From: Prochlorococcus sp. scB245a_519A13
GTDB lineage: Bacteria; Cyanobacteriota; Cyanobacteriia; PCC-6307; Cyanobiaceae
Assembly (NCBI GenBank): GCA_000634415.1
Contig: JFNH01000098.1
Location: 1-64,000, forward strand
Length of the DNA: 64,000 bases
Reading direction: 5' to 3'
The position numbers and the translations under genes were made by a program. The notes under the pieces are model-generated. The model saw only the letters and a program-made list of their open reading frames with translations, was not told the DNA's origin and did no database searches. Position 1 is the stretch's first letter; each line of letters starts with the position of its first letter. This document shows, in pieces, positions 5,582-10,606 of the stretch.

Positions 5582-6772
5582 ATGAGTTTTAAAAAAAATA
5601 TAAACGATATTAAGAAAAATTATTCCCTAGGAATAATTGGAGGTGGTCAACTGGCTTTGATGCTAACCGAGGCAGCAAAAAAAAGAGATCTAGAAGTATG
5701 TGTGCAAACAAAATCTTGTGATGATCCTGCTGGTTTAAAAGCAGATCATGTCATAGAAGCTGATCCTTTAAAGATAAGAGGTAATAAATCATTAATTAAT
5801 GAGTGTGAGAAAATAATTTTTGAAAATGAATGGATAAAAATTGATAAATTAAATTTAATTGACAATAAAGATATTTTTGTTCCAAGCCTTAATGCAATTA
5901 AGCCATTAGTTGATAGGTTTTCTCAAAAAAAATTAATAGACAGAATGAATATTCCCTGCCCAAAATGGATAAGTATTGAAGATTTTAAAAATCTCTCGGA
6001 TGAGGAAATCAATAATTGGACTTTTCCTCTTATGGCAAAATCAAATAAAGGTGGATATGACGGCAAAGGGAACAGAAAAATAAAGACAAAAGAAGATTTA
6101 GATATTTTTTTAACAGAGAATAGTTCTAATGAATGGTTAATAGAAGAATGGATAGAGTATGAAAAAGAACTGGCTCTTGTTGGTTCGAGAGATAGGACCG
6201 GTAAGATAAGATTCTTTCCAATAGTTGAAACGTTCCAATCAAACCATGTTTGTGATTGGGTTCTTGCACCTGGAACAAGTGAATATGATTTGAACTTATT
6301 TGCAATAAATATTTTCTCTTCAATAGTCAATGAACTTAATTACGTTGGAGTTTTAGCTATTGAATTCTTCTATGGAGATAATGGTCTTTTAATTAATGAA
6401 ATAGCTCCAAGAACACATAACTCAGCTCATTTCTCTATTGAAGCTTGCACTTCAAGTCAGTTTGATCAGTATGTTTGCATTTCCTCTGGGATAATGCCAC
6501 CTGAAATTAAAATGAACTGTGAAGGTGCAATTATGATAAATCTACTGGGGTTGAAAAAGAATTTCCCAATCTCAATGGAAACCAGAATTAAAATGTTATC
6601 TGAAATTGAGGGTTCTAATATTCATTGTTATGGCAAATCTCGCGAAATTCTGGGAAGAAAAATGGCGCACATCACATTTTTATTAAATGGTAAAACGCAT
6701 TCAGAAAGATATGATGAAGCTCAAATTTTATTAACTATGGTAAGAGACATTTGGCCATCTCCAAATGCATAA
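5582..6772 (+). CDS. purK: N5-carboxyaminoimidazole ribonucleotide synthase
   Basis: ATP-grasp enzyme of purine synthesis that carboxylates AIR to N5-CAIR. 396 residues. N-terminal GIIGGGQLALMLTEAAK, the ATP-grasp loop KSNKGGYDGKG at about residue 160, and INEIAPRTHNSAHFSIEAC near residue 275 are typical. It is followed by the 6S RNA in the same direction, the arrangement known from other cyanobacteria, where purK and 6S RNA can be co-transcribed. Confidence 0.96.
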   Translation: MSFKKNINDIKKNYSLGIIGGGQLALMLTEAAKKRDLEVCVQTKSCDDPAGLKADHVIEADPLKIRGNKSLINECEKIIFENEWIKIDKLNLIDNKDIFVPSLNAIKPLVDRFSQKKLIDRMNIPCPKWISIEDFKNLSDEEINNWTFPLMAKSNKGGYDGKGNRKIKTKEDLDIFLTENSSNEWLIEEWIEYEKELALVGSRDRTGKIRFFPIVETFQSNHVCDWVLAPGTSEYDLNLFAINIFSSIVNELNYVGVLAIEFFYGDNGLLINEIAPRTHNSAHFSIEACTSSQFDQYVCISSGIMPPEIKMNCEGAIMINLLGLKKNFPISMETRIKMLSEIEGSNIHCYGKSREILGRKMAHITFLLNGKTHSERYDEAQILLTMVRDIWPSPNA

Positions 6773-6789: not shown

Positions 6790-6972
6790 AGATTACTGGA
6801 TCTTTGGTTAAGTTCTTCTTTATGTGCTCTGATCTGACTCTCTTTCGACATGAGGAGACTGTCGTGATGCGGTAGTAAACCGATCTTGTAATCGGAAACG
6901 AAAGCCCACTTTGAATCCTCTTCTGGCATTTCCAGGTCGATGCAGCAGAGAACTGACGGGGATCCGGTATTA
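6790..6972 (+). ncRNA. ssrS: 6S RNA (cyanobacterial 6Sa/SsaA/Yfr7)
   Basis: Directly behind purK, the conserved position of the cyanobacterial 6S gene. The ends pair: TACTGGATC at 6794-6802 with GATCCGGTA at 6961-6969 (8 Watson-Crick plus one G-U). The interior is relatively GC-rich for this genome and contains short complementary arms around a central region, consistent with the long interrupted hairpin of 6S RNA, which mimics an open promoter and binds sigma-70-type RNA polymerase. About 180 nt fits. The exact 5' end is not determined. A minus-strand ORF over it (6735-6980) is rejected. Confidence 0.85.
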
Positions 6973-7024
6973 CCTATCAAACTGCTTGTTATTACAGGCT
7001 TTTGGTAGGTATTTTATTTTTTTG
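6971..7024 (+). terminator. Rho-independent terminator of purK/6S RNA
   Basis: TACCTATCAAA (6971-6981) pairs with TTTTGGTAGGTA (7000-7011) over 11 bp including one G-U. A run of 12 Ts broken by one A follows at 7012-7024. Confidence 0.85.
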
Positions 7025-7081: not shown

Positions 7082-7132
7082 TTGACGATCCATTTCTAAT
7101 GTATTTATATTAGTAGTACACATGTATTACTA
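7082..7132 (+). promoter_or_regulatory. Promoter and LexA-like dyad of DUF1651 gene 1
   Basis: -35 TTGACG (7082-7087), 18-bp spacer, -10 TATATT (7106-7111). The predicted start near 7118 lies inside a 22-bp imperfect dyad at 7111-7132 (18 of 22 positions symmetric) whose core AGTACACATGTATT (7116-7129) matches the cyanobacterial SOS-box consensus I recall (RGTACNNNDGTWCB) except for one T in place of C. The same arrangement recurs before the second DUF1651 gene. The leader would be only about 19 nt and carries no Shine-Dalgarno for the 7137 ATG. Confidence 0.6.
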
Positions 7133-7136
7133 AGTA

Positions 7137-7436
7137 ATGACTTTAGGAGGAGCTAATGTTTGGACTAATTTTTCTTACGGTTATCGTAATGAGTCCCCAA
7201 GTGGTTGGTTGCTTAGCCCAGACCGTAGCAGATTAATTTTATTTATGAGGAATAAAAAATCTCCAAGAAATAGTATGAGAATTTTTGCTCATACATATTA
7301 TGCAAATGATCTTGGTGAGCCAATGGCAATTAAATCATCCACTCAAATGTATTTGGATAATGCTTGGGATAAATGGCATGACCTTCAATTAGAAGGTTGG
7401 ACTTTTGAAGAACTTGAATTTCCTGAATCTGTATGA
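7137..7436 (+). CDS. DUF1651 family protein, copy 1
   Basis: 99-residue soluble protein of unknown function. It shows the DUF1651 pattern: PSGWLL, a hydrophobic strand with ILFM, THTYYANDLGEP and a C-terminal AWDKWHDLQLEGW. It is a paralogue of the gene at 9582; the first 12 codons are nearly identical at DNA level while the rest has diverged. Only one in-frame ATG is possible, since a stop sits two codons upstream. It heads a run of three overlapping genes (next starts at 7433 and 7563) and contains a +1-frame nested ORF with its own ribosome binding site (7156-7236). Confidence 0.85.
   Translation: MTLGGANVWTNFSYGYRNESPSGWLLSPDRSRLILFMRNKKSPRNSMRIFAHTYYANDLGEPMAIKSSTQMYLDNAWDKWHDLQLEGWTFEELEFPESV
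7156..7236 (+). CDS. Nested +1-frame ORF, lipobox-like hydrophobic peptide
   Basis: 26 codons inside the DUF1651 gene. AGGAGG at 7145-7150 sits 5 nt before this ATG, an ideal ribosome binding site. The peptide starts MFGLIFLTVIVMSPQ, continues VVGCL and ends TVAD: a short hydrophobic stretch followed by a lipobox-like VVGC. The second DUF1651 gene has an equally long counterpart at 9601-9681. Part of the similarity is forced by the overlapping DUF1651 frame, so coding status is a hypothesis. Confidence 0.4.
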   Translation: MFGLIFLTVIVMSPQVVGCLAQTVAD

Positions 7437-7573
7437 CTAACTTAAATCCAATCAAAAAGAAATTATCAAAAGTAGATAGAAAGATATCTATGCAAGACCC
7501 ATCAAAATTATTAGCAGAATTTTTTAATGGCGTTGTCATTGAGCTTGATGAAGAATATAAATATGACTCATAA
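7433..7573 (+). CDS. Small hypothetical protein (46 aa)
   Basis: Starts at an ATGA overlap with the DUF1651 stop, so translational coupling is likely. Basic N-terminus (NPIKKKLSKVDRK) and acidic C-terminus (ELDEEYKYDS). No recognised domain. The next gene starts 11 nt before its stop. The chain of overlaps supports a real operon. Confidence 0.55.
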   Translation: MTNLNPIKKKLSKVDRKISMQDPSKLLAEFFNGVVIELDEEYKYDS

Positions 7574-7715
7574 AGAATTGATAGATCAAGTTTCCGCAAA
7601 TTTATTTAAACAAAGTGGAAGGTTAGAAAGCAGAAGATCTTGGTTGGCAATGAGAAATTATCTTGAACAATTAGATACCGAACAACTTAAATCCATGCTT
7701 AAGGACCACGGATGA
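7563..7715 (+). CDS. Small hypothetical protein (50 aa)
   Basis: Begins MTHKELIDQVSANLF and continues with an amphipathic helical pattern (RSWLAMRNYLEQLDTEQLKSML). A longer reading from 7527 exists, but ATG 7563 is preferred because earlier residues overlap the 46-aa gene. Third gene of the DUF1651 run; if the dyad at 7111 binds LexA, it would be co-regulated. Function unknown. Confidence 0.6.
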   Translation: MTHKELIDQVSANLFKQSGRLESRRSWLAMRNYLEQLDTEQLKSMLKDHG

Positions 7716-9529: not shown

Positions 9530-9576
9530 TTGACGTCCAGGAGTAGTACATTTATATTAATAGTACAACTGTATTA
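9530..9576 (+). promoter_or_regulatory. Promoter and LexA-like box of DUF1651 gene 2
   Basis: -35 TTGACG (9530-9535), 17-bp spacer, -10 TATATT (9553-9558), then AGTACAACTGTATT (9562-9575), again one base off the recalled SOS-box consensus and with the same C-to-T change as in copy 1. The ATG follows 6 nt later. Sequence and layout parallel 7082-7132. Confidence 0.6.
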
Positions 9577-9581
9577 TCTCA

Positions 9582-9872
9582 ATGACATCAGGAGTAGCTA
9601 ATGTTCGGACTAATTTTTATAGTGGCAGCCTTATTGACACCCCAACTGGCTGGTTGTTTAACAAAAAAAGTGGTTTATTAATTCTTTTTGAGAGTTATAA
9701 GAAATCTCTATCTAATAATGTAAAAGTTTATACTCACCTTTTCTATGCAAATGAATTAGGTGAACCAGCCCAGCTTAAAAATTCGAGACTGCATTCTATT
9801 GAGTGTGCTTGCGAAACATGGGATGAATTAGTTTCAGGAGGTTGGCAAATTGTTACTAGTAAATTCCACTAA
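9582..9872 (+). CDS. DUF1651 family protein, copy 2
   Basis: 96 residues; same pattern as copy 1: TPTGWLFN, HLFYANELGEPAQL, then CETWDELVSGGWQ. Codons for ANV and TNF near the start are identical to copy 1 even at third positions, although later parts have diverged. It has a nested +1 ORF at 9601. The downstream neighbour (9875, 2 nt after the stop) is a Cys-rich protein, unlike the partners of copy 1. Confidence 0.85.
   Translation: MTSGVANVRTNFYSGSLIDTPTGWLFNKKSGLLILFESYKKSLSNNVKVYTHLFYANELGEPAQLKNSRLHSIECACETWDELVSGGWQIVTSKFH
9601..9681 (+). CDS. Nested +1-frame ORF, lipobox-like peptide, copy 2
   Basis: 26 codons, same length and position as the ORF at 7156. AGGAG at 9590-9594 lies 6 nt upstream. 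Peptide starts MFGLIFIVAALLTPQ, continues LAGCL and ends KKVVY; LAGC is a good lipobox. Identical to copy 1 at MFGLIF, PQ and GCL. Expression is not shown; overlap with DUF1651 constrains it. Confidence 0.4.
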   Translation: MFGLIFIVAALLTPQLAGCLTKKVVY

Positions 9873-10350: not shown

Positions 10351-10392
10351 TAAGTAAGACTTAAGTTTAACTTGTTGAATAGGAGGGATCTA

Positions 10393-10434
10393 ATGATTGA
10401 CAGTCCACCAGAGGAGTTAAATTATAAAATTTAA
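10393..10434 (+). CDS. 13-codon mini-ORF with perfect Shine-Dalgarno
   Basis: AGGAGG at 10381-10386 lies 6 nt before ATG 10393. The peptide is MIDSPPEELNYKI. A strong terminator follows 26 nt after its stop (10461). Either a micro-peptide or a small RNA with a ribosome-binding element. The ribosome binding site is much stronger than for most genes here. Confidence 0.35.
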   Translation: MIDSPPEELNYKI

Positions 10435-10460
10435 ATCTAGATAAAACTAATGCTAAATCT

Positions 10461-10496
10461 GGAATGAATCTTATTTTTGAGATTCATTCCTTTTTA
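10461..10496 (+). terminator. Strong terminator behind the mini-ORF
   Basis: GGAATGAATC (10461-10470) and GATTCATTCC (10481-10490) form a perfect 10-bp stem with a 10-nt loop, followed by five Ts. Confidence 0.85.
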
Positions 10497-10606
10497 ATTT
10501 CTTTCTAAAAAAATGTGAAATTATAAATATTAAATTTTTAAAATAAAAAAATCTGTACATATTAAAATGATTTTATGTCAAAGACACTTGTAGTACGTGA
10601 TTAACT

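Follow-up and report, generated by a model that had tools for sequence, protein, structure and literature searches.

In phage lambda, a small membrane-associated protein, Rz1, has its whole coding sequence inside the gene Rz, in the +1 frame, and constraint on the pair is divided, each protein being tolerant of change where the other is not (PMC5295617). In E. coli, DinQ (PMC3567139) and TisB are SOS-induced single-span peptides, each accompanied by an antisense RNA. In Prochlorococcus MED4, two genes with the DUF1651 domain (PF07864), PMM0684 and PMM0819, rise on infection by phage P-SSP7 (PMC5490813). PMM0684 is co-induced in mid to late infection with an antisense RNA, asMED4_07401, for which its authors argue protection and not degradation. 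Here we analyzed a 64,000-nucleotide stretch of Prochlorococcus sp. scB245a_519A13 (contig JFNH01000098.1, positions 1 to 64,000 of the forward strand; hereafter the window), which contains two DUF1651 genes, copy 1 and copy 2. Each encloses a second ORF that has its own start and stop and lies wholly inside the gene, in its +1 frame (Table 1).

The nested ORFs share some properties with each of these systems. Similar to Rz/Rz1, a small and probably membrane-associated protein would be encoded entirely in the +1 frame of a larger gene, with constraint divided between the two frames. However, Rz1 is a lipoprotein of the outer membrane whose coding sequence lies late in Rz (PMC5295617), whereas the peptide predicted here has 26 residues, starts 19 nt after the start of its host gene and has no conserved lipobox Cys. 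The host gene lies on a bacterial chromosome and carries a LexA-type box, and we claim no homology. With DinQ and TisB, the likeness would lie in a short, hydrophobic peptide, in the predicted LexA-type control and, for PMM0684, in the antisense RNA published for this gene. However, DinQ and TisB are stand-alone ORFs with shown toxicity, whereas our predicted peptide lies inside the gene of a conserved protein. PMM0684 and PMM0819 have the same domain as the window copies, and PMM0684 is syntenic with the window and carries both a LexA-type box and a nested ORF. They were published as single-product genes, and the accessible text of that report mentions neither the nested frame nor the box (PMC5490813). 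Our literature searches on DUF1651, PMM0684/PMM0819 and small ORFs, covering papers available without subscription, had neither a report of a nested frame in DUF1651 nor a Prochlorococcus ribosome-profiling study among the matches listed. The phage response of these genes was already known.

Table 1 Features of the window discussed in the text (SD, Shine-Dalgarno)
Feature	Position	Strand	Remark
6S RNA (SsaA/Yfr7)	6790..6974	+	Rfam RF00013, 94.3 bits; synteny marker with MED4 purK - yfr7 - PMM0684
Sigma-70-like promoter, copy 1 (TTGACG-18 nt-TATATT)	7082..7111	+	Consensus match only
LexA-type box AGTACACATGTATT, copy 1	7115..7128	+	Ends 8 nt before main ATG; group-A conservation
DUF1651 gene copy 1 (group A)	7137..7436	+	PF07864; substitutions in codons 38-96 follow the DUF1651 frame
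SD-like AGGAGG, copy 1	7145..7150	+	5 nt before nested ATG, inside DUF1651 codons 3-5; mean duplex -9.8 kcal/mol (120 genes)
Nested ORF copy 1, 26 aa	7156..7236	+	ATG to TAA; constraint only at first codons
Sigma-70-like promoter, copy 2 (TTGACG-17 nt-TATATT)	9530..9558	+	Consensus match only
LexA-type box AGTACAACTGTATT, copy 2	9562..9575	+	Ends 6 nt before main ATG; group-B conservation
DUF1651 gene copy 2 (group B)	9582..9872 (including stop)	+	PF07864, 50 bits, cut-off 22; counterpart of MED4 PMM0684
SD-like AGGAG, nested ORF copy 2	9590..9594	+	Mean duplex -6.7 kcal/mol (108 genes)
Nested ORF copy 2, 26 aa	9601..9681	+	Very likely under purifying selection as a protein

Of 400 genomes in the family, 337 have a PF07864 match. 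We compared 249 Prochlorococcus DUF1651 genes, sorted by sequence patterns and not by a tree into four paralogue groups: A (120 genes, with copy 1), B (108, with copy 2), C (11), and D (10). A first set of 141 genes with the N-terminal motif came from 120 stretches and the window; it represents 141 of 175 DUF1651 ORFs (177 matches minus two from L129, a repeat of the window). The 34 ORFs excluded for absence of the motif comprise 20 other-genus loci, eight Prochlorococcus ORFs with a short N-terminus and a remainder of incomplete, broken or distant ORFs. Because the excluded ORFs include two broken group members (L096 and L100), losses are slightly undercounted. The second set of 108 genes came from 81 further loci (160 minus 52 exact duplicates, with one ORF, L235, skipped). 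The N-terminal extension is absent from all 20 other-genus loci examined, so the nested ORF appears to be confined to Prochlorococcus within the loci examined. A nested ATG followed by exactly 26 codons is found in 113/120 genes of group A, 107/108 of B, 11/11 of C, and 8/10 of D. Substitutions were counted by parsimony on single-gene trees built on codons 38-96 and, as recombination would inflate such counts, tree-free and dereplicated versions were also run.

What the sequence-only reading had described in the window is there: the nested ATG at 7156 with its AGGAGG 5 nt upstream and 26 codons, a second DUF1651 gene with a nested frame of equal length, and, in both copies, the same codons at six unchanged residues (A, N, V, T, N, and F). 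The nested peptides read MFGLIFLTVIVMSPQVVGCLAQTVAD in copy 1 and MFGLIFIVAALLTPQLAGCLTKKVVY in copy 2. The DUF1651 proteins of the two copies are 40% identical (the profile match of copy 1 scores 41.3 bits for a cut-off of 22), and the W to R, T to S, and N to Y replacements between them are all silent in the nested frame. A 21-base pattern running from the SD to the nested start, with up to three mismatches, has two matches in the window and is absent from all 100 shuffles. The same reading had noted that the DUF1651 ATG has no SD, and this extends to the groups. Duplexes of -4 kcal/mol or below occur at the nested start of 120/120 group-A and 108/108 group-B genes but at the main start of just 1/120 and 0/108, respectively, against a background of 13% of the 971 plus-strand ATGs of the window. 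Mean energies at the nested start are -9.8, -6.7, -9.5, and -5.9 kcal/mol in groups A to D, compared with values between -0.4 and +0.6 kcal/mol at the main start across groups. The SD-like run stays while the residues it encodes vary (LGG, SGV, SGE, LVG, SGR, LRG, LRE, HRE), and it is lost in two group-D genes. The main ATG has become ATA in one group-B gene (it is present in 107/108) and is replaced by GCA in one group-C gene; the nested ORF is intact in both.

The strongest evidence that the nested frame is a gene comes from group B. The first position of a DUF1651 codon is the third position of a nested codon, and the codon rhythm of substitutions changes along the gene. Counts at main positions 1/2/3 are 19/18/57 in codons 1-6, 29/12/0 in codons 7-13, 34/18/17 in codons 14-22, and 16/7/20 in codons 23-33, that is, the DUF1651 frame, the nested frame over codons 7-22, a mixture, and the DUF1651 frame again afterwards. 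The SD and its spacer could account for part of the pattern in codons 1-6, but 107/108 genes retain the main ATG. The totals of 63/30/17 for codons 7-22 differ from the 99/65/152 of codons 38-96 (Fisher p=6.6e-10), and constraint is thereby split, with the nested frame holding codons 7-22 and the main frame codons 38-96. The nested dNN/dNS is 0.36 over codons 7-22 and 0.40 over codons 7-32, compared with 0.99 in the downstream control, whereas the other shifted frame gives 2.01 and 1.68 downstream. None of 149 substitutions in codons 7-32 created a nested stop, as against 16 of 312 in the control. Nested replacements are conservative (mean BLOSUM62 +0.59 for an expectation of -0.40; control -0.25 for -0.11).

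The periodicity of group B holds for the 55 genes of the first set (p=5e-9), for the 53 new genes alone (p=2e-4), and for dereplicated sets of 29 (p=3e-5) and eight genes (p=3e-4). Counting variable sites without a tree gave five first against no third positions in codons 7-13 (p=0.012); this test was weaker over codons 7-22 (11 first against four third positions, p=0.022, range 0.02-0.04) and not significant over codons 7-33 (p=0.09-0.2). Over the same DNA, groups B and C agree at 59% of nested but at 44% of DUF1651 positions, the nested value being higher in every pair. Between A and B, the values are 42% nested and 36% main, whereas the A-C, A-D, and C-D comparisons favor the main frame. 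The first 19 residues in group B have a mean hydropathy of 1.95, compared with 1.00 (sd 0.59) in the recoding null, and part of the hydrophobicity is forced by the main frame. The nested-frame periodicity and the dNN/dNS of group B make it very likely that copy 2 encodes a peptide maintained by purifying selection, and dual coding, as proposed in the sequence-only reading, is supported by codon statistics for this copy. The peptide of its MED4 counterpart PMM0684 is probably under purifying selection as well. Group C points in the same direction (dNN/dNS 0.38), its control of 8.22 reflecting a single NS change in nine usable sequences.

The situation is different for copy 1, where dual coding had been proposed from the flagged locus itself. 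The nested ATG is lost in 5/120 group-A genes (three ACG, one AAG, and one GTG, which could still initiate); three of the five losses are AAT to AAC changes silent in DUF1651. Two further genes have a nested frame shortened to 19 codons. Substitutions at main positions 1/2/3 number 6/2/5 in codons 7-13, 8/14/25 in codons 14-22, 26/10/79 in codons 23-33, and 79/72/197 in codons 38-96. Synonymous third-position changes are suppressed in codons 7-13 (4 observed vs 18.9 expected, Poisson 4e-5; codon 7 has three of them and codon 11 the fourth), but number 22 vs 27.7 expected in codons 14-22 and 65 vs 30.2 in codons 23-33. Purifying selection on the nested frame past the start was seen neither in group A (dNN/dNS 1.42 over codons 7-32, control 1.27) nor in group D (1.42, control 1.53). 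As suppression in group A is confined to the start, what is conserved in copy 1 is the start block and not the peptide. The absence of constraint past the start in groups A and D indicates that the peptide, if it matters, is dispensable in some paralogues. Copy 1 is probably a partly decayed paralogue whose nested frame is a decaying or start-only remnant, and we doubt that it makes a functional peptide. Overall, conservation of the nested start, SD and frame together with synonymous constraint makes a strong case for copy 2 and a weak one for copy 1. The suggestion of a lipoprotein-like micropeptide has to be abandoned for both copies: Cys19 changed to Tyr about eight times in group A and four times in group B, and group C mostly has Tyr at this site (all eight peptides listed of ten, with Cys in L104). 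In addition, no Lys or Arg precedes the hydrophobic run.

Upstream of both copies, a sigma-70-like match is followed by a box, RGTACNNNTGTAYT, common to the two genes. The leader of about 19 nt predicted for copy 1 in the sequence-only reading fits the match at 7082-7111, but this is a consensus match, and a scan for promoter-like sites found nine, fewer than in shuffles (15.1). Published cyanobacterial LexA consensuses are of the RGTACNNNDGTWCB or AGTACWNWTGTACT type (PMC3091678). In a relaxed form, the box precedes 119/120 A, 108/108 B, 11/11 C, and 9/10 D genes, and in a strict form 116, 100, 11, and 6, respectively. The 1.15-Mb genome of the window has the pattern at four places (copy 1, copy 2, before a RecA ORF, and before a 75-aa ORF), with one place for the reversed-pattern control. 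In the MED4-coordinate genome, eight places, including PMM0684 and the group-A gene, compare with one for the control, and the published MED4 boxes of recA (AGTACACATGTACT) and lexA (GGTACAAATGTATT) are recovered exactly among the eight. Copies 1 and 2 both have boxes ending in TGTATT, like the published MED4 lexA box, and not in TGTACT. Position near the promoter and conservation among orthologues, by which cyanobacterial LexA-regulon boxes are recognized, are both found for the DUF1651 genes. The term DUF1651 does not occur in the main text of the cyanobacterial LexA regulon predictions (PMC3091678), and its accessible passages do not name these genes. With these motif data, we consider with good confidence that the copy-2 nested ORF would be under LexA control. 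The 75-aa ORF has its box, AGTACATATGTATT, 8 nt upstream (L237:1363-1612, G000:C3) and contains one hydrophobic stretch; its box is also present at about 30.2-30.4 kb in four other genomes (G015, G022, G419, and G429). A second SOS-controlled small membrane protein is possible there.

The gene neighborhood links the window to MED4. Copy 1 is preceded by purK (5582-6772) and by a structured stretch in which ARAGORN found no tRNA and which is the 6S RNA. In MED4, yfr7 (6S) is reported at 652625..652844, between purK and PMM0684; in the MED4-coordinate genome, we found the 6S match at 652620-652804, followed by a DUF1651 gene (L095) at 652944. This position next to 6S identifies L095 as PMM0684, in agreement with the published purK - yfr7 - PMM0684 order. 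PMM0684 belongs to group C, its nested ORF reads MFGLIFLMAVVLIHPMAGYLTRKAAF, and by sequence it is nearest to copy 2 (56% identity). Copy 1 is 83% identical to the MED4 gene at 774462-774755, which is probably PMM0819 and the counterpart of copy 1. Downstream of that gene come two ORFs whose sequences we read as Hli-like. A small ORF (MTHKELIDQVSANLFKQSGRLESRRSWLAMRNYLEQLD...) comes after the group-A gene in the window (7527-7715), and a related form is present in the MED4-coordinate genome (L255:914-1081, minus strand), before two Hli-like ORFs. Downstream of copy 2, positions 10374-10497 show a weak match to the Yfr11 RNA family (35 bits, below the gathering threshold of 44).

Which explanations other than a selected peptide could produce this pattern? 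A nested ORF might arise by chance, as a by-product of AT-rich codon usage and conserved DUF1651 residues. Copy 1 lends itself to this, as 43% of the synonymous recodings in group A retain an ATG with exactly 26 codons and nested losses occur at ordinary rates, and group D fits as well. However, the same recodings yield the ORF in 6.7% of cases for group B (9.5% for C and 9.4% for D), whereas it is observed in 99.1% of group-B genes (94.2% in A), and a chance origin does not account for a substitution pattern that switches frame. Chance is therefore very unlikely to be the explanation. Programmed frameshifting would join the nested and DUF1651 frames into one fused protein. Internal SD-like sequences can stimulate frameshifting, and many group-B genes have a seven-A run in the nested frame from which a -1 shift would enter the DUF1651 frame. 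However, the run is missing in groups A and C and is interrupted in some group-B genes by changes of AAA to CAA, the nested ATG, not needed for frameshifting, is kept in 108/108 group-B genes, and the fusion would bypass the conserved GWL motif of DUF1651, all of which leave this a far-fetched mechanism.

Constraint on the RNA, already named as an alternative in the sequence-only reading, is the more serious contender. The start region would be kept for an unstructured or SD-bearing mRNA, for a small RNA or antisense site or for a regulatory second start, and the peptide would have no role. This would be enough to explain copy 1, where synonymous suppression is limited to codons 7-13 and absent beyond, and an antisense RNA to PMM0684 has been published. 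However, group B tolerates nested-synonymous changes over codons 7-22, and its nested replacements are conservative; as RNA constraint has no cause to track a codon frame, it cannot explain the nested-frame periodicity of copy 2. We regard it as unlikely. By comparison, we think it probable that copy 2 and its orthologues are SOS- and phage-responsive genes with two products and that copy 1 is a remnant of such a gene.

For such two-product genes, we propose the following sequence of events. A LexA-type operator would overlap the transcription start region. A single mRNA would offer two starts 19 nt apart, an SD-less ATG for DUF1651 and an SD-led ATG for the 26-residue peptide. Since a ribosome bound at either start should keep the other from being used, competition between the two products is expected. 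Judging from its composition alone, the hydrophobic peptide would most likely form a single membrane span. Substitution patterns show that protein-level selection keeps its frame, mostly under a disordered DUF1651 extension where the DUF1651 frame is nearly free. The box and the induction of PMM0684 suggest that the peptide would be made upon removal of LexA, either following DNA damage or in the course of phage infection. It may then act at the membrane similarly to TisB and DinQ, or as a brake on division or energy. The proposal is weakest in the function that it gives to the peptide; by analogy, a membrane effector of the DinQ/TisB sort is a tentative assignment for copy 2.

The DUF1651 protein itself was modeled for copy 2. 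The AlphaFold2 model has a mean pLDDT of 74.7, with residues 1-17 below 50 and a domain from residue 23. With such a low-confidence N-terminus, the nested gene covers a disordered extension together with the first strand. Foldseek returned nothing for the model at E<=0.001. With VIA-align (residues 14-96), PARP1/PARP2 WGR domains occupy the first 13 rows, but at Z 5.4-6.4 and about 3 A over 71-77 residues these alignments are below the level to trust, and sequence profiles gave no confirmation of a WGR kinship. A likeness to WGR, a DNA-break-binding domain, would be fitting for a gene with a LexA box. One could then imagine that high-light Prochlorococcus possess an SOS- or phage-triggered dual-coding gene for defense or dormancy, whose exclusive starts would give either DUF1651, possibly a DNA-break-binding fold, or an arrest peptide. 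This extended version is speculative, and we would not expect it to hold in full. If it were true, DNA damage or the breakdown of DNA by phages would be met by repair and arrest encoded in the same bases.

From a biological perspective, the host is among the most abundant photosynthetic organisms, and few selection-backed nested genes are, to our knowledge, described in bacterial chromosomes. Phenotypes of DUF1651 genes, such as phage yield or stress, could be due to the peptide and not to the annotated protein. A change of AAT to AAC at Asn7, silent in DUF1651, abolishes the nested ATG and offers a concrete test. For annotation, an SD-less start beside an out-of-frame SD-led start can flag a hidden gene.

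Finally, a phage origin of these genes was considered and rejected, as a tblastn search with the copy-2 protein against 50,697 phage records gave no match. In PHROGs, the copy-1 nested peptide has no match and the copy-2 peptide matches only phrog_35037 (E=0.12). A candidate viral contig of IMG/VR, IMGVR_UViG_2716884731_000001, carries near its end an A-type DUF1651 gene that has both the box and an intact nested ORF (L236:2979-3291).
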